From contig NZ_VOHA01000004.1 in the NCBI RefSeq assembly GCF_007859315.1, positions 124,001 to 188,000 of the forward strand: 64,000 nt of DNA, given 5' to 3'. The position numbers were made by a program, and so were the translations under genes. Position 1 is the first letter of the stretch, and each line of letters opens with the position of its first letter. The stretch is from Reyranella sp. CPCC 100927. Its GTDB lineage: Bacteria > Pseudomonadota > Alphaproteobacteria > Reyranellales > Reyranellaceae. Shown here in pieces: positions 7,615 through 22,383 of this stretch. A model generated the notes under the pieces. It had not been told where the DNA came from and made no database searches. It saw only the letters and a program-made list of their open reading frames with translations.

Positions 7615-8388
7615 TTACGCCTTCAGCCGATAGCCGGTGCGGAACATCCACGTCACGATGGCCATGCAGACGGCGAGGAAGGCGAACGTCATGGCGAGGC
7701 TGAGCCCGACCCCGATCCCGGCATCGGCGATGCCGAAGAAGCTCCAGCGAAAGCCGTTCACCAGGTAGACCACAGGATTGAACTGGGTCACCGTTCGCCA
7801 GAACGGCGGCAGCACGTCGATGGAATAGAAGCTGCCGCCCAGGAACGTCAGCGGCATGACGATCAGCGTCGGTACCAGCATCAGCTTTTCGAAGCCGGTG
7901 GCCCAGATGCCGATGATGAAGCCGAACAGGCTGAAGGTCACCGACGTCAGCACCAGGAACAGCACCATCACGAGGGGATGGGCGACCGGCAGCGGCACAA
8001 ACAGGCTGGCGGTCACCAGCGCGATCACGCCCAGGATCATCGACTTGGTGGCGGCGGCGCCGACATAGCCCAGCACGATCTCGAGGGCCGACACCGGCGC
8101 CGACATGACTTCATAGATGGTGCCGACGAATTTCGGGAAATAGATGCCGAAGGAGGCATTGGAGATGCTCTCGGTCAGCAACAGCAGCATCACCAGGCCG
8201 GGTACGACGAAGGCGCCGTAGGGAACGCCGTGGATCTGTGGCATCTGCGTGCCGATGGCACCGCCGAAGACCACGAAGTAGAGCGACGTCGACAGCACCG
8301 GTGAGACGATACTCTGCAGCAAAGTGCGACCGGTGCGCGCCATCTCGTAGGTATAGATGGCGCGGACGGCATGAAGGTTCATGCTCAT
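7615..8388 (-). CDS. ABC-2 type transporter permease (YadH-like)
   Basis: 257 residues with six predicted membrane segments: around 24-45, 58-78, 105-130, 137-160, 167-188 and 228-248. It carries the ABC-2 family features: a [10 protein letters not shown] segment, the [18 protein letters not shown] loop and [13 protein letters not shown]. The order and length fit the E. coli YadH permease. It overlaps the ATPase gene upstream by 4 bases (ATGA), so the two are translationally coupled and form an exporter of two half-units each. The substrate (drug, lipid or polysaccharide) is not evident. Confidence 0.9.
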
Positions 8389-10493: not shown

Positions 10494-10533
10494 GGGCTGC
10501 GCGCCTGCACCCCTCTGGCGGGGAGTGACCCGC

Positions 10534-11661
10534 ATGGCACCAGGCGGCGATTCGGCCGAAGCCGGCCAGGCGCTGGCCAAACAGACCGTATTCCTGTTCG
10601 GGCGCGCGCAGGGCCTGACGCGGCGTCGACTCGACCAGCTGGTACGCCTGCGCGGCGGCAAGCTCAGCAGCAAGCCCAGCACGCGCGTCACGGTCATCGC
10701 CGTCGGTCATTCCGCCACATCCCATGTGCTGGCCGATGGGCGCGTGCGCCTGCCGGTGGGCCTGCCGGCATCGGCGATACTGATCAGCGAGAAGGAACTG
10801 CGCCGGCGGCTGGGACTCCTGGGGCCGCCGCCCGACGTCGACCGCAGCCTCGCCTCGGCGGAAATCGAGCGCCTGGCCGGGCTGACGCCGACGCTGGTGG
10901 CGTGTCTCGCCCTGTTCGACGTGCTCGAGCCGGTCGAGGCCCGCTTTGCCTACCGCGATGTGGTGGCCGCGCGCGAGGTCGGCCGCCTGCTGACACGCGG
11001 TATCGACCTGGGCCAGATCCTGGGCGCCTCGGTCACGTTGGGGCGCCGCGGCAGCCATCTTGCCGAAGCGCGGTTGACCGAGGGACCGTCCGGCGAACTG
11101 GTGCGGGAACTGGGCGGCCAGCTCGCCGAGCTCAGCGGCCAGCTCACCATGCGGCTGGAGCAGGACGTTCGCGGCATCGACGAACTGGTGGCGGCGGCCG
11201 AGCTGGCGGAAGAGGACAACGATCTGGCGACGGCCGAGAGCCTCTACACGACGGCCATGCGTGCCGACGCCGGCGATCCGGTCCTGCCGTTCAACCTCGG
11301 CAATGTTTTTGACGCGCAGGGGCGCGCTGCCGAGGCGAAGATCGCCTGGCAGATCGCGGTGGCCCGCGACCCGGCGTTTGCCGAGGCCTGGTACAATCTC
11401 GCCATGGCGGCCGAGGACGAGGCGCACGAGGATCTCGCCATCGCCGAGTATCGCCGCGCCGTGCAGGCGCAGCCCGAATTCGCCGATGCCCACTACAACC
11501 TGGCGCTGCTGCTGACCAAGCTCGATCGTTGCGAGGAGGCGCTGGCGGCATGGGAACGTTTCCTGGAACTGGCGCCGAAATCCGGCCAGGCCAGCACGGC
11601 CCGCCGCGCCGCCGCGCTGTGCCGCATGCGGATCAGGCAGAAACAGGCTCAGACTGGGTAA
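10534..11661 (+). CDS. BRCT-like / MerR-like / TPR protein downstream of ku
   Basis: 375 residues from the ATG at 10534 (GGGGAG upstream). Three regions are visible. Residues 15-60 look like a BRCT fold: a strand TVFLFGRA, helix LTRRRLDQLV, then RGGKLS and a strand VTVIAVG. Residues 117-165 resemble the MerR N-terminal helix pattern (LALFDVLEPVEARFAYRDVVAAREVGRLLTRG). Residues 218-345 hold about three TPR units ending with PEFADAHYNLALLLTKL. It follows ku by 40 bases on the same strand, so it is probably co-transcribed and may act in end joining as a scaffold or regulator. That role is inference; I know of no characterised homologue. Confidence 0.8.
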   Translation: MAPGGDSAEAGQALAKQTVFLFGRAQGLTRRRLDQLVRLRGGKLSSKPSTRVTVIAVGHSATSHVLADGRVRLPVGLPASAILISEKELRRRLGLLGPPPDVDRSLASAEIERLAGLTPTLVACLALFDVLEPVEARFAYRDVVAAREVGRLLTRGIDLGQILGASVTLGRRGSHLAEARLTEGPSGELVRELGGQLAELSGQLTMRLEQDVRGIDELVAAAELAEEDNDLATAESLYTTAMRADAGDPVLPFNLGNVFDAQGRAAEAKIAWQIAVARDPAFAEAWYNLAMAAEDEAHEDLAIAEYRRAVQAQPEFADAHYNLALLLTKLDRCEEALAAWERFLELAPKSGQASTARRAAALCRMRIRQKQAQTG

Positions 11662-11666
11662 AGGTT

Positions 11667-11779
11667 GATATATTTAAGCATATTTTTAATGAGGGAATAT
11701 ATTCTTTTCTATATCAGTCAGATTGACGCTGATGTATGATTCGATATATTAGATCATCGTCGATATACTTATGCATATC
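11667..11779. promoter_or_regulatory. Repeated boxes upstream of the hipBA-like genes (candidate HipB operators)
   Basis: Two 18-base boxes match at 15 positions: GATATATTTAAGCATATT (11667-11684) and GATATACTTATGCATATC (11762-11779). A second direct repeat, TCGATATA, occurs at 11741-11748 and 11760-11767, 19 bases apart, so on the same helix face. The whole region is AT-rich in an otherwise GC-rich sequence and ends two bases before the antitoxin start codon. HipB antitoxins repress their own operon through repeated upstream sites, which makes these good candidates. Confidence 0.55.
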
Positions 11780-11780
11780 A

Positions 11781-12092
11781 ATGACCTACCTGACCCAAGC
11801 GTTCGCGAAGACCCTGAAGGATGCCAGAGTTCGCAAGGGGCTCACGCAACGCACGTTGAGTTTGAAAGCTGGCCTGCCTCAGAGCCACATCTCCCGCATT
11901 GAAGCCGGGAAGGTCGATCTGCAGCTCTCCAGCCTGGTTGCGCTGACGCGCCTGCTCGATCTGGAATTGATGCTTGTGCCGCGACAGGCGGTGCCGGCGG
12001 TTCGATCCATCGTGGGAGACGGCGGCCCATCGCCCCCCGCAAACGTCACGCGGCCTGCCTATCGTTTGGATGACGACGATGGCCACGCCTGA
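11781..12092 (+). CDS. hipB: HipB-like XRE antitoxin/regulator
   Basis: 103 residues from the ATG at 11781; an in-frame ATG 45 bases upstream lies inside the repeated boxes and is unlikely. An XRE helix-turn-helix occupies about 10-65 (LKDARVRKGLTQRTLSLKAG, then PQSHISRIEAGKVDLQLSSL). The C-terminal 30 residues are Pro/Asp-rich and probably disordered, as in HipB proteins whose tails contact the toxin. The gene overlaps the hipA-like gene by 23 bases, a classic coupled toxin-antitoxin arrangement. It would neutralise HipA and repress the operon. Confidence 0.85.
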   Translation: MTYLTQAFAKTLKDARVRKGLTQRTLSLKAGLPQSHISRIEAGKVDLQLSSLVALTRLLDLELMLVPRQAVPAVRSIVGDGGPSPPANVTRPAYRLDDDDGHA

Positions 12093-13302
12093 TGTCACCG
12101 TCCTGGAAGTTCTGCTCCATGGCGAAGTCATCGGCACGCTCACGTCGTTGCCGGGCGACCGATCAATCTTTGCTTTCAGCGAAGAGTACATCGCTGATCA
12201 GTCGCGGCCGCTCCTCAGCCTCTCATTCAAGGATGATCTTGGTGGCCTGATCACGAACGTCAGGCCGACGCGGACCCGTGTCGCGCCCTTCTTCGCCAAC
12301 CTCCTGCCGGAAGGCGCCATGCGCCAATACCTGGCCGACAAAGCTGGTGTGGATCCGGCGCGCGAGTTCTTCCTGATCTGGGTTCTGGGGCAGGATCTTC
12401 CCGGGGCCGTCAGGATCCGTCAGTCCGACGGCCGGGCGCTTCCGCCCGCTTCTGCTGGTGACAGCAGGGATCGCCGAGGGGCCGTGCTGCGATTTTCACT
12501 GGCCGGCGTGCAGCTCAAGTTCTCAGCATTTCTTGAAGCCAGAGGAGGGCTCACGATTTCGGCAGAAGGTGTCGGCGGATCGTGGGTCGTGAAACTGCCC
12601 TCGGCCTCGTTCGAGGGCGTGCCTGAGAATGAATTCTCGATGATGAGCCTGGCCAAGGCTGCCGGCATGGACGTGCCCGAAGTGCGTCTCGTTGCTCTCG
12701 ATGCGATCGCGAATCTGCCGGATGGCATCGGTCGACTGAAGGGACGGGCCTTTGCCGTACGGCGCTTCGATCGCGCCGCCGACGGAACAGCGATCCACAT
12801 GGAAGATTTCGCTCAGATCTTCGGCGTCTACCCGGACGACAAATACCGGAAAGCCAGCTACCGGAACCTGGCATCGGTCATCTGGGCGGAGATAGGGGAG
12901 GTCGGTATCACGGAGTTCGTCCATCGCCTCGTCTTCAGCGGACTCATCGGCAATGCCGACATGCATCTCAAGAACTGGTCGTTGGTCTATCCCGATGGCC
13001 GAAACGCACGGTTGGCGCCGGCCTACGATTTCGTCTCGACCATTGCCTATCTCGACGACCCGGCCATGGCGCTGAATGTCGTGCGCACCAAACGTCGTGA
13101 CGAACTGACGTGGGATGAACTCAGCTATCTTGCCGCCAGAGCCCAGCTTCCTGAGCGGCTCGTTCTCGCTACTGCCCGCGAGGCGGTTCGGCGATTCCGC
13201 GAAGCGTGGGCATCGGAAAGAAAGCATCTGCCAATCGACGCGGCTGTTGCCCGTGCAATCGAGCGCAACATCGCGACTATACCGATCGCGGGTGGCGGCT
13301 AA
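12070..13302 (+). CDS. hipA: HipA-like serine/threonine kinase toxin
   Basis: 410 residues from the ATG at 12070; an ATG three codons later is equally possible. HipA kinases phosphorylate glutamyl-tRNA synthetase or other targets and cause growth arrest. Seen here: the HipA N-terminal domain (about 10-115), the P-loop-like segment RFSLAGVQLKFSA (141-153), a Lys in WVVKLP (Lys175) fitting ATP binding, catalytic IGNADMHLKNWSL with Asp297, and the AYDF metal site with Asp320. All catalytic positions are intact, so the kinase is probably active. It overlaps the antitoxin gene. Its TAA stop codon coincides with the left end of palindromic element B. Confidence 0.9.
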   Translation: MTTMATPDVTVLEVLLHGEVIGTLTSLPGDRSIFAFSEEYIADQSRPLLSLSFKDDLGGLITNVRPTRTRVAPFFANLLPEGAMRQYLADKAGVDPAREFFLIWVLGQDLPGAVRIRQSDGRALPPASAGDSRDRRGAVLRFSLAGVQLKFSAFLEARGGLTISAEGVGGSWVVKLPSASFEGVPENEFSMMSLAKAAGMDVPEVRLVALDAIANLPDGIGRLKGRAFAVRRFDRAADGTAIHMEDFAQIFGVYPDDKYRKASYRNLASVIWAEIGEVGITEFVHRLVFSGLIGNADMHLKNWSLVYPDGRNARLAPAYDFVSTIAYLDDPAMALNVVRTKRRDELTWDELSYLAARAQLPERLVLATAREAVRRFREAWASERKHLPIDAAVARAIERNIATIPIAGGG

Positions 13303-16860: not shown

Positions 16861-17136
16861 TCATCCGCCGGCGCCGAAGCGTTCGGCAGACCGCGCGCGG
16901 GCCTTGGCGGCTTCGATCTCGCGATCGCGCGGCGGTGCGGTCGTCACCAGAGCCTGGAGCAGCTCGTGTGCCGCCTGGGTCACCTGCGCGACAGCGCGAT
17001 CGAATGCTTCTTCATTGGCCTTCGATGGGCGATTGAAGCCGCTCACCTTACGCACGAACTGGATGGCCGAGGCGTTGATCTCCTCGTCCGTGGCGGGTGG
17101 CTCGAAGTTGAAGAGGTTCTTGATGTTTCGGCACAT
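16861..17136 (-). CDS. DUF2277 family protein
   Basis: 91 residues. The opening MCRNIKNLFNFEPPATDEEI and the RKVSGFNRPSKANEEAFDRAV block are the DUF2277 pattern. It is small, acidic to neutral, helical and cytoplasmic; its function is unknown. The family's conserved Cys2, Arg3 and Asn4 at the N-terminus are present. First gene of a probable two-gene unit with the hydrolase downstream. A palindromic element (copy C) lies 22 bases upstream of its start. Confidence 0.88.
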   Translation of the reverse strand: MCRNIKNLFNFEPPATDEEINASAIQFVRKVSGFNRPSKANEEAFDRAVAQVTQAAHELLQALVTTAPPRDREIEAAKARARSAERFGAGG

Positions 17137-19110: not shown

Positions 19111-22100
19111 GTGAACAAACCCCTTGATACCTACAGATCCAAGCGGAATTTCGCGAAGACACCGGAGCCGGCCGGGGAGCCACGCGCGGCCCCTGATGGT
19201 CATACCTATGTCATCCAGAAGCACGCGGCACGCCGCATGCACTATGATTTTCGCCTGGAACTCGGCGGTGTCCTGAAAAGCTGGGCGGTTCCCGAGGGAC
19301 CGAGCCTGGTCCCCGACAAGAAGCGGCTGGCCGTTCATGTCGAGGATCATCCGCTGGAGTACGGCGCCTTCGAGGGCGTCATCCCGAAGGGCGAGTATGG
19401 CGCCGGCACGGTGATGGTGTGGGATCGCGGGACCTGGACACCCGAGTTCGATCCGGACTTCGGCTATCGCAAAGGGCACCTGAGATTCCGGCTGGATGGC
19501 GAGAAGCTGAAGGGCGAGTGGCATCTGGTGCGCATGGCGCGCAAGCCGCGCGAGAAACAGGACGCGTGGTTGCTGATCAAGTCCAAGGACGCGGCGGCGC
19601 GTGCGGCCGACGCACCCGACATCCTGACGGAAATGCCGCTCTCCGCCGCGACCGGACGTGACATCGACGCCATCAGTCGCGACCATGATCGGGTGTGGTC
19701 GTCGCGGCAGGGCGAGATCACTCCGCCGGCTGCGGCGCAGCGACCGCGGAAGCGCAAGCCGGTCGTCGATCCGGCGTCGATCCGCAAGGCCAAGGCTGGC
19801 GCCATGCCCGAGTGGGTCGAGCCGTGCCTGCCGTCCACGGTCGAGAAGGCGCCGGCCGGTGACGGCTGGGTGCACGAGATCAAGTATGACGGCTATCGCG
19901 TGCAGGCGCGTATCGAGAAGGGCCGCGCGACACTGCTGACGCGACAGGGGCTCGACTGGACAGACCGCTATCCCGGTGTTGCTCCGGCGATCGCCGCACT
20001 GCCGGTGACATCGGCGTTGATCGACGGCGAGATCGTCGTGCAGACGGACGCTGGAGTCGCGAGCTTCACCGCGCTGGTGGAAGCGCTGAAAAGCGGCGCC
20101 AGCAACTTCGTGTTCTATGCTTTCGACCTGCTTCATCTCGACGGCTACGACCTGCGCGCCGCATCGCTGGTGGAGCGCAAGGCGGCGCTGCAGAAGATCA
20201 TCGTGGCCGACGGCGAGAACGGCCGCGTGCGGTTCAGCGAGCACATTGCCGGCGACGGCAACACGATCTTTCAGCACGCCAGCCGCCTGGGCCTCGAAGG
20301 GATCATCTCCAAAACGGCATCGGCGCCTTATCAATCGGGTCGCGTGAAGACGTGGCTGAAGGTGAAGACCACGCAAACCGGCGACTTCGTGGTGGCGGGA
20401 TTCATGCCATCGTCGCTCGACAGCCAGGCGGTCGGCGCGCTGGTGCTGGGCGAGTATGTCGGCGGCAAGCTGGTGCCGTCGGGGCACTGCGGTTCAGGCT
20501 TCAGCGTCAGCAACGGCCGGGCCCTGTGGCAGCGGCTCAATCCCATGCGCACCAAGACCGCGCCGATGAAGGATGAGACCGCGACCGCCAAGGGCGTGCG
20601 ATGGGTGACGCCAACCGTCGTGGTCGATGTCGAGTATCGCGGACGCACGCGCAGCAACCTGATCCGGCACGCCGTGTTTCGCGCGGTCATCGAAGACAAG
20701 GCGCCGACCGACGCCCAGCGTGCCGCTGCCGAGCCGGCGTCGGCGCCCGCCCGGAAACCGCGGGAGGCGGCGCCTCTGGTGCGGCTCACCAATCCGGGAC
20801 GCCTGTTGTGGCCCGAGCAGGGGATTACCAAGCAGGGCCTGGCGGATTTCTATACCGAGATCGCTGACTGGATCCTGCCGCATATCGCCGGCCGTCCGCT
20901 GAGCCTGCTGCGTTGCCCCGGCGGCATCACCGAGCAGTGCTTCTTCCAGAAGCATCGATGGGCCGGGCTCAGCGACGGCGTGCGGCTGGTGCCGATTCCC
21001 GGCGACGACGAGCCGATGCTGGCGATCAACGATCTCGCCGGCTTGCTGGAACTCGTTCAGGCCGGCGTGCTGGAAATCCATCCTTGGGGTGCCACGGCCG
21101 ACCAGCCGGCGCTGCCCGATCGCGTGACCATCGACCTCGATCCGGGTGACGGCGTGCCGTGGGAGCGGGTGATCGAGGCCGCGTTCGACGTTCGGCGCTG
21201 GCTGCAGAAATATCATCTGCAGAGCTTCGTGAAGACGACCGGCGGCAAGGGCCTGCACGTCGTCTTTCCGGTGACGCCGCAGGCCGACTGGGACAGCGTG
21301 AAGAGCTTCGCGCAGCAGATTGCCGAAGCGATGGCGGCCGAACGCCCGGACCGCTACGTCGCCAACATGGCCAAGCGCGTGCGCCAGGGACGCATCTATG
21401 TCGACTATCTGCGCAACGGCATGGGTGCGACCGCCGTGGCGGCCTATTCGACACGGGCGCGCGCCGGTGCCGCGGTCTCGACGCCGCTCACCTGGGACGA
21501 GATCGGCCCGGGCATTCGCGCCAACCATTTCACCGTGGCCAACCTGCCCAAGCGCCTGACATTCCTCGACCGCGATCCGTGGGAGGGTTTTGCATCCTTG
21601 GAGCAGGCGCTGCCCGACACCGTGACCAGTGCAACGGTGCCGTCAAAGAGCGACCTGGCGACGTACTGGAAGGCGGTCGCGACCGAGGCATTGGCACACC
21701 TGGCGCGCCGGCCGCTGACCCTGGTGCGCCATGAAAAGGGCGAGACGTTCTATCACCAGAGCCGGCCGCTGCCGCCCATCCCGAAAGCCGTCCATCAGTT
21801 GCGCATCAAGAAGCGCGAAGGCGGCGAGGGGACCCGGTTGTGGGTCGACAGTCTCGAGGGCCTGCTGGGCCTCGTCGACATGGACGTCATCGAGATCCAT
21901 CCCTGGGGTGCCACGGTCGACCAGATCGAGCGTCCCGATATGCTGGTCTTCGGCCTCGACCCCGGCGACGGCGTCGATTGGGGCTTCGTGATCGAGACGG
22001 CCCGTAGAATGCGCACACTGCTGGACAGTGAAGGTCTCGAGAGTTGGCCCAAGCTCACCGGCGGCAAGGGCGTGCACATCATGGTGCCGGTCGAACCCGA

Positions 22101-22383
22101 TCTCGACTGGAACGAGACGCACCTCTATAGCCGCGACCTCGCCGAGCGATTGGCCGCGACGGCACCCGAACGCTACGTGACGGCCGCGGCGTACGACAAG
22201 CGTCCGGGTCGCCTGTTCATCGACTGGTTGTGCAACAGCCGCGGCAAGACCGCTGTCGGCGCCTATTCGCCTCGGGCGCGTCCCGGCTTTCCGATTGCCG
22301 CGCCGATCAGCTGGGAGCAGCTCGAGCAGGGCATGCGCTCGAACGCCTTTACGATCTTCCAGCCACCGCCGCGACGCAAGTAA
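19111..22383 (+). CDS. ligD: DNA ligase D with phosphoesterase, ligase and two tandem polymerase domains
   Basis: 1090 residues, against about 840-880 for a usual three-domain LigD. Order: PE 1-165 with His38, His44, Asp46, Arg48 and His80 in the family spacing; ATP-dependent ligase about 230-530 with KYDGYR (Lys258); POL1 about 555-835 with DLD (Asp675, Asp677), TGGKGLH (710-716) and Asp765; POL2 about 842-1086 with IHPWGAT, TGGKGVH (983-989) and Asp1038. In POL2 the DLD motif reads GLD (Gly948), so the first metal ligand is lost. POL2 lacks the LTNPxxLLWPE opening of POL1. LigD works with Ku in end joining: POL adds ribonucleotides, PE trims ends, LIG seals. Why two POL domains exist is unknown. 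Confidence 0.95.
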   Translation: MNKPLDTYRSKRNFAKTPEPAGEPRAAPDGHTYVIQKHAARRMHYDFRLELGGVLKSWAVPEGPSLVPDKKRLAVHVEDHPLEYGAFEGVIPKGEYGAGTVMVWDRGTWTPEFDPDFGYRKGHLRFRLDGEKLKGEWHLVRMARKPREKQDAWLLIKSKDAAARAADAPDILTEMPLSAATGRDIDAISRDHDRVWSSRQGEITPPAAAQRPRKRKPVVDPASIRKAKAGAMPEWVEPCLPSTVEKAPAGDGWVHEIKYDGYRVQARIEKGRATLLTRQGLDWTDRYPGVAPAIAALPVTSALIDGEIVVQTDAGVASFTALVEALKSGASNFVFYAFDLLHLDGYDLRAASLVERKAALQKIIVADGENGRVRFSEHIAGDGNTIFQHASRLGLEGIISKTASAPYQSGRVKTWLKVKTTQTGDFVVAGFMPSSLDSQAVGALVLGEYVGGKLVPSGHCGSGFSVSNGRALWQRLNPMRTKTAPMKDETATAKGVRWVTPTVVVDVEYRGRTRSNLIRHAVFRAVIEDKAPTDAQRAAAEPASAPARKPREAAPLVRLTNPGRLLWPEQGITKQGLADFYTEIADWILPHIAGRPLSLLRCPGGITEQCFFQKHRWAGLSDGVRLVPIPGDDEPMLAINDLAGLLELVQAGVLEIHPWGATADQPALPDRVTIDLDPGDGVPWERVIEAAFDVRRWLQKYHLQSFVKTTGGKGLHVVFPVTPQADWDSVKSFAQQIAEAMAAERPDRYVANMAKRVRQGRIYVDYLRNGMGATAVAAYSTRARAGAAVSTPLTWDEIGPGIRANHFTVANLPKRLTFLDRDPWEGFASLEQALPDTVTSATVPSKSDLATYWKAVATEALAHLARRPLTLVRHEKGETFYHQSRPLPPIPKAVHQLRIKKREGGEGTRLWVDSLEGLLGLVDMDVIEIHPWGATVDQIERPDMLVFGLDPGDGVDWGFVIETARRMRTLLDSEGLESWPKLTGGKGVHIMVPVEPDLDWNETHLYSRDLAERLAATAPERYVTAAAYDKRPGRLFIDWLCNSRGKTAVGAYSPRARPGFPIAAPISWEQLEQGMRSNAFTIFQPPPRRK

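Follow-up and report, generated by a model that had tools for sequence, protein, structure and literature searches.

In a 64,000-nucleotide stretch of the genome of Reyranella sp. CPCC 100927 (contig NZ_VOHA01000004.1, positions 124,001 to 188,000 of the forward strand; hereafter the window), the DNA ligase LigD is encoded as a four-domain protein in the order PE-LIG-POL1-POL2, where PE is the 3'-phosphoesterase, LIG the ATP-dependent ligase and POL the polymerase domain. POL2, the additional C-terminal domain, is probably an inactivated accessory module that has nevertheless been retained, with POL1 serving as the working gap-filling polymerase. Judged from its sequence, POL2 appears to descend from the POL of a two-domain LIG-POL LigD and not from POL1. 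The four-domain LigD also belongs to a locus of its own for non-homologous end joining (NHEJ).

The gene is a single uninterrupted frame of 1090 residues with a GTG start and no internal stop (Table 1). Pfam profiles place LigD_N at residues 36-141, DNA_ligase_A_M at 250-419, DNA_ligase_A_C at 439-530 and LigD_Prim-Pol twice, and the NCBIfam profile ligD_pol (TIGR02778) likewise matches two stretches. The protein exceeds the cut-offs of TIGR02776 and NF004628 (NCBIfam), its PE domain scores 226.3 bits against TIGR02777 (cut-off 144), and its ligase domain is of the NHEJ type (TIGR02779, 289 bits, cut-off 227.75). Taken alone, POL2 reaches 236.9 bits against LigD_Prim-Pol (PF21686, cut-off 27.4) and its matches in the Protein Data Bank are the five distinct LigD POLs of solved structure that POL1 also finds, with best values of 3.5e-42 for POL2 and 5.5e-59 for POL1. 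An earlier sequence-only reading of this DNA had described the uninterrupted 1090-residue PE-ligase-POL1-POL2 frame, which the open reading frame and both sets of profiles confirm, and had suggested the domain search in which both POLs now match LigD_Prim-Pol and solved LigD POLs. The motifs that it saw in both POLs (IHPWGAT, DPGDG and TGGKG(L/V)H) are all present; it overlooked the residues preceding DPGDG, which are DLD in POL1 and GLD in POL2.

Two LigD_Prim-Pol stretches depart from the description of LigD in PMC8656161, which, in the text available, gives the protein up to three enzymatic domains and thus at most one POL. A 2020 survey of bacterial NHEJ groups genomes by their combinations of PE, LIG and POL and mentions several POL copies per genome (PMC7719229, in part); the terms "two POL" and "tandem" do not occur in its main text. 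Full-text searches of the open-access literature for a two-POL LigD returned no paper, and broader ones listed no title describing such a protein, in keeping with the earlier view that the tandem fusion lies outside the standard description.

To place the architecture among relatives, we scanned a family set of 75 genomes with PE-LIG, counting in the genome that contains the window (9.08 Mb; G000). Full-length orthologues are at least 64% identical, the next long matches are ordinary LigDs of at most 47% identity, and POL2 stands behind POL1 in every full-length orthologue. The tandem architecture is thereby present in 12 of the 75 genomes, that is, in 11 besides the window's own. We take these 11 to be V. 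terrae, Rhodospirillaceae bacterium SYSU D60007, Reyranella soli, Rhodospirillales bacterium URHD0017 and seven metagenome-assembled genomes (MAGs) of Reyranella or Rhodospirillales; the four named-organism records carry no MAG label. The same-genus relative G074 is taken as Vineibacter terrae CC-CFT640, and NCBI taxonomy lists both Vineibacter and Reyranella in Hyphomicrobiales, with Reyranella in Reyranellaceae. With 12 of 75 genomes sharing the architecture, neither chance nor an assembly error can explain it, and a frameshift, which the sequence-only reading had raised as a danger to its claim, is ruled out by a POL2 frame that is open in 12 genomes. An apparent TAG stop in the tandem match of G058 was set aside, as the alignment there overruns the gene end and the frame itself is open over 1035 residues. 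In G048 the tandem frame (L040, 5149-8982) continues open for about 200 codons ahead of PE, and its start is uncertain.

Wider samples were searched for LigD POLs, and two-POL frames were called by eye; the sampling took in the class, the phylum and Acidobacteriota, with Actinomycetota, Bacillota and Bacteroidota outside it. In the class sample, 65 of 387 genomes carry a LigD POL and only G000 and G072 have two POLs per frame. In the phylum, 113 of 397 sampled genomes have a LigD POL, with two POLs per frame only in G000 among the matches listed; for Acidobacteriota the figure is 102 of 297, and the matches listed include no two-POL frame. No two-POL frame outside the family turned up in these samples. 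In a plasmid search with POL1-POL2, the 12 listed matches (600 other records) span about 820-870 bases, the length of a single POL; this query cannot separate tandem from single domains, since one POL matches both of its halves.

The case against a second working polymerase rests on the active site. We numbered residues after the M. tuberculosis POL in a common alignment (the number R230 is assigned by alignment), for which PMC8656161, as far as its text was available, gives D137, D139 and D227 as metal ligands, S172, H178 and R244 as triphosphate contacts, F64 and K66 as base contacts, H111 as ribose contact, and N13, K16 and K26 as the 5'-phosphate pocket. Of 12 POL2s none keeps the equivalent of D137 (the first metal-binding Asp in motif I), as against 12/12 POL1s, 17/17 LIG-POL domains and 23/23 single POLs. 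The D139 equivalent is kept by three of 12 POL2s and the R230 equivalent by none, and both are complete in the three other groups. Motif I of active archaeo-eukaryotic primase (AEP) polymerases, hhhDhD, is therefore absent from POL2. Motif II (sxH) keeps its His in 12/12 and its small residue, Gly, in 3/12, the window retaining GVH, and motif III (hD) is present, with its Asp in 11/12. Most POL2s have also lost whole segments: the F64/K66 hairpin and the stretch following motif I are each deleted in 9/12, and 10/12 lack the stretch that links motif II to motif III. Other positions have survived, namely H178, R244 and N231 in all 12, and D227 and K26 in 11 each. POL1 retains the equivalents of D137, D139, H178, D227 and R244, and thus motifs I, II and III.

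At the other two positions of the phosphate pocket, counted gap-free back from K26 in untrimmed sequence, no POL2 has Asn at N13 or Lys/Arg at K16 (the window has A and D). LIG-POL domains retain N13 in 17/17 and have Q at K16; POL1s have N (11) or S (1) at N13 and R at K16. The mildest POL2s are those of the window and V. terrae, with GLD for DLD, R230 lost and Q at K66. Codons at D137 in POL2 are GGC, AGC/AGT and GCC/GCG, each at most two base changes from GGC, which would fit a single early Asp-to-Gly change. Since the first motif I Asp is lost in 12/12, POL2 is, by sequence, not a second working polymerase; it appears catalytically dead and should be unable to use the two-metal mechanism.

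The apparent loss of catalysis has not been followed by loss of the domain: POL2 is maintained by purifying selection, more relaxed than that on POL1. In six unsaturated pairs, maximum-likelihood (ML) omega is 0.060-0.123 for POL2, 0.032-0.070 for POL1 and 0.025-0.086 for LIG, and omega=1 is rejected in all 24 pairwise fits. The POL2 frame is open in each of the 12 full-length orthologues, though a single stop after POL1 would remove POL2 and spare POL1. Furthermore, K854, D997, L998 and E1002 are common to 11-12 of 12 POL2s, compared with at most 2 of 17 LIG-POL domains and at most 1 of 12 POL1s.

The descent of POL2 was followed in a tree of 64 POL domains, for which 17 LIG-POL and 23 single-POL loci were chosen for spread out of 80 loci; the residue counts above use the same rows, plus the partial domain L083. 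POL2 groups with LIG-POL and POL1 with ordinary single POLs, both at 100/100, and POL1 (100/100), LIG-POL (95/92) and POL2 (95/78) each form a clade. The window's POL2 shares 59-60% identity with the POL of the LIG-POL protein on S. meliloti pSymB, as against 41% with POL1; over the LIG-POL POLs of S. meliloti pSymB, Ensifer, Mesorhizobium, Bradyrhizobium and Enterovirga and the two of the family member G057, the range is about 54-60%. Because POL1 forms a single clade and the tandem loci have neighbours in common, a single capture is the simplest account. L083 (1-561) is a fragment resembling POL2 that lies at the edge of a MAG contig; it has 66% identity to the window's POL2 and an intact DLD. 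It might have belonged to an ancestral tandem, but the PE-LIG piece of its genome is closest to ordinary LigDs (L085, L087, L092), and no tandem LigD was seen among 39 genomes of its family. Among LIG-POL loci, L046 (9193-10049), L068 (4769-6531) and L082 (5035-6767) hold genes or pieces split over two frames, probably broken copies.

The join between the two POLs suggests how the fusion may have come about. In alignment A3, with 33 rows of tandem and LIG-POL proteins, the LIG-POL POLs fall on POL2 (55-61% identity to the window); alignment A2, which apparently set them on POL1 (35-40% identity to the window), was not used. A LIG-POL POL starts (I/V)(L/M)QxLP(D/E)...P(S/P)x, and the join reads ...LKQTLPGA...P(S/T)K in most Reyranella tandem proteins and SLEQALPDTVTSATVPSKSDL in the window. 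Q-x-L-P is invariant across the 33 rows and occupies the same aligned columns in tandem and LIG-POL proteins. POL1 is complete, POL2 begins about where the POL of a LIG-POL protein begins, and no second ligase is left. A LIG-POL gene may thus have been joined to a neighbouring PE-LIG-POL gene by a deletion that took out the second ligase, and the Q-x-L-P stretch may have been involved in the joining.

The four-domain LigD also has a Ku of its own kind. Ku is encoded in all 12 tandem genomes; 10 of them have one 3.6-20.3 kb upstream of, and on the same strand as, the tandem ligD. No Ku was found on the ligD contigs of G072 and G032, which are 24 and 8 kb long. In the Ku tree, a clade of 12 rows (100/100) unites the 10 linked Kus with a single Ku from G072 and another from G032, and it stands far apart from the remaining Kus of these genomes. 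PE-LIG also has a second, ordinary match in 7 of the 12 tandem genomes, including the window's. The linked Ku of one clade, the shared DUF2277 neighbour and this second PE-LIG together assign the four-domain LigD to an NHEJ locus of its own. At 10 of 11 fetched loci (L033, L035-L043), a DUF2277 gene stands no more than about 2 kb from the tandem ligD; its product is possibly an NHEJ-linked small protein.

Several further observations concern these loci and genomes. Between ku and ligD, the window carries a helix-turn-helix gene and a HipA-like gene of the toxin-antitoxin type (11736-13302, + strand). The window's genome has a second, ordinary PE-LIG-POL LigD (G000:C1:445465-448092; L002, L047) and a second Ku of a different clade (G000:C34:34014-34553). 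G057 encodes two LIG-POL LigDs, one of them close to Ku, and G057 and G015 have 19 ligase-domain matches and fragments each. Near the Ku of G025 and apart from its tandem ligD lies a POL2-like fragment (L205, G025:C6:11000-16000, 2555-2830).

Table 1. Features of the four-domain ligD gene and its surroundings, in window coordinates.
Feature	Position	Strand	Basis and remarks
ku, 332 aa	9495..10493	+	Ku scan, tree; clade found in all 12 tandem genomes; 8.6 kb upstream of ligD
Tetratricopeptide repeat (TPR) protein gene after ku	10525..11661	+	TPR and Ku both matched in L036, L040, L043; TPR alone in L037
DUF2277 gene	16861..17136	-	Neighbour of tandem ligD at 10/11 other tandem loci
Tandem-POL ligD, 1090 aa, GTG start	19111..22383 (including stop)	+	Open reading frame, Pfam, NCBIfam
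PE (3'-phosphoesterase) domain, aa 5-161	19123..19593	+	TIGR02777; LigD_N aa 36-141
ATP-dependent ligase domain, aa 239-535	19825..20715	+	TIGR02779
POL1, about aa 557-832, motifs intact (DLD aa 675-677, H716, D765, R782)	20779..21606	+	Pfam, NCBIfam, solved POLs, alignment
POL1/POL2 join, aa 828-846, Q-x-L-P then VPSK, very short linker	21592..21648	+	Alignment
POL2, about aa 846-1087, apparently inactivated POL domain akin to LIG-POL POL	21646..22371	+	Pfam, solved POLs, tree, alignment
POL2 motif I, GLD (GGC CTC GAC) replacing DLD	21952..21960	+	Alignment, codons

What could a POL domain without its catalytic Asp be for? PE, LIG and POL1 presumably carry out known LigD chemistry, as all match their families and the POL1 motifs are intact. 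POL2 could then have a non-catalytic part to play as a scaffold or docking domain: through contacts with POL1, the partner Ku or a second LigD, it would help to hold LigD on the break. We are less sure of this role than of the fusion. Direct contact between Ku and the POL domain is reported for M. tuberculosis in the available part of PMC8656161. A docking or scaffold role is our first choice because catalysis and the canonical half of an end synapse are both disfavoured. A more specific version, in which POL2 is a captured pseudo-polymerase turned docking or regulatory domain, tuned to the dedicated Ku clade and allowing two NHEJ sets per cell, only one of which would have the four-domain LigD, we offer tentatively, as possible but short of an even chance. 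An alternative is that POL2 supplies the second half of the synapse from within the protein, a single chain then bridging two DNA ends through its POL1 and POL2. Two LigD POL domains do form the M. tuberculosis synaptic complex according to the accessible text of PMC8656161, and K26 of the phosphate pocket is kept in 11/12 POL2s; but N13 and K16, the former universal in LIG-POL domains, are gone from all 12, and the segment from motif II to motif III, where the same source places synapsis elements, is deleted in 10/12. These losses weaken a canonical synapse role, which we consider unlikely.

Other readings give POL2 different chemistry, no function or another origin. Retained triphosphate contacts (T/S172, H178 and R244 in 12/12) might serve nucleotide sensing, and the B. 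subtilis LigD POL domain is reported to have apurinic/apyrimidinic (AP)-lyase activity (PMC13201618, in part). Against this, AP incision in B. subtilis, as that text describes it, requires Mn2+ and a ribonucleotide bound at the POL active site, the metal site is lost in POL2, and 51 of the 260 columns in the POL2 alignment are invariant in any case, which makes retained chemistry a long shot. A functionless remnant, decaying but tolerated at the C-terminus, would account for the lost active-site residues, for segments deleted in 9-10 of 12, for a dN/dS above that of POL1, and for G032, which is without the last part of POL2; yet omega of 0.06-0.12 with omega=1 rejected, a domain open to its end in 12/12 although so cheaply removable, and positions conserved in POL2 alone make decay improbable, if somewhat less so than retained chemistry. 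Finally, POL1 and POL2 are neighbouring homologous domains with common motifs, and the sequence-only reading had called POL2 a duplicated domain. It is indeed a homologous POL domain, but 41% identity to POL1 against 59-60% to LIG-POL, and a tree that splits the two at 100/100, leave a tandem duplication of POL1 next to no credit; the POL tree that the same reading had proposed puts POL2 with a distinct LigD clade, that of LIG-POL.

Several points weigh against POL2 as an inactivated but retained module captured once from a LIG-POL protein. The 12 tandem genomes are one family and not 12 independent tests. G036 has an isolated PE fragment of 56 residues, 71% identical to the window's PE (L204, G036:C32:4000-20000, 7655-7843), with no LIG or POL matched in the 16 kb around it, and is perhaps what is left of a lost orthologue there. 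Equivalents of D139, D227, H178 and R244 are still present in the POL2s of the window and G074, which may have residual activity. The eight ML pairs share branches, and two POL2 pairs are saturated and without usable omega. By NG86, dN/dS is higher in POL2 for 66/66 pairs (POL2 0.16-0.81, POL1 0.07-0.46), and POL2 is therefore under weaker constraint than POL1. When the partial L083 is added, POL2 is no longer one clade in the best tree; a single clade is not rejected (approximately unbiased (AU) test, p 0.183), and since the clade loosens in this way, two separate POL2 captures may have occurred. Lastly, a Q-x-L-P ending is present in one of eight printed single-POL C-termini (L106, ...VKQKLPV) and missing from the other seven, so that the motif points only loosely to the exact site of the join.

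Compared with known systems, the window's LigD resembles the PE-LIG-POL LigD (NF004628, TIGR02776) in the order of PE, LIG and POL1, in the intact POL1 motifs and in having Ku in the genome; it differs by the extra C-terminal POL2, which appears to be of other descent and is without the first motif I Asp. The two-domain LIG-POL LigD of Sinorhizobium, Mesorhizobium, Bradyrhizobium and Enterovirga (annotated as DNA ligase D, e.g. WQP24396.1) provides the POL nearest to POL2 among complete domains, but that protein comes with a ligase of its own, shows no match to PE and keeps DLD intact. The synapsed POL pair of M. tuberculosis (PDB 4MKY and 2R9L, by way of the available text of PMC8656161) likewise puts two POLs at one break; there, two copies of one active POL sit on separate chains, whereas the window's LigD is one chain with one POL apparently dead. 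LigD is the textbook example of an end joiner in a single enzyme. If our reading is true, the capture and disabling of a second polymerase in this LigD would show a selectable non-catalytic role for the POL fold, and the POL2s, which range from nearly intact in Vineibacter to stripped in Reyranella, could serve as a natural series for mapping the parts involved in Ku docking or end bridging. The closest parallel, by analogy, is the inactivated half of eukaryotic Pol epsilon, in which an active polymerase module is followed by an inactivated, distantly related one, an arrangement that PMC2669801, in the part available, attributes to fusion with a distinct polymerase rather than to duplication. 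Pol epsilon is a replicative enzyme of the B family and not of the archaeo-eukaryotic primase fold, and we claim no homology; if the likeness holds, its active-plus-dead arrangement would recur in another polymerase superfamily.

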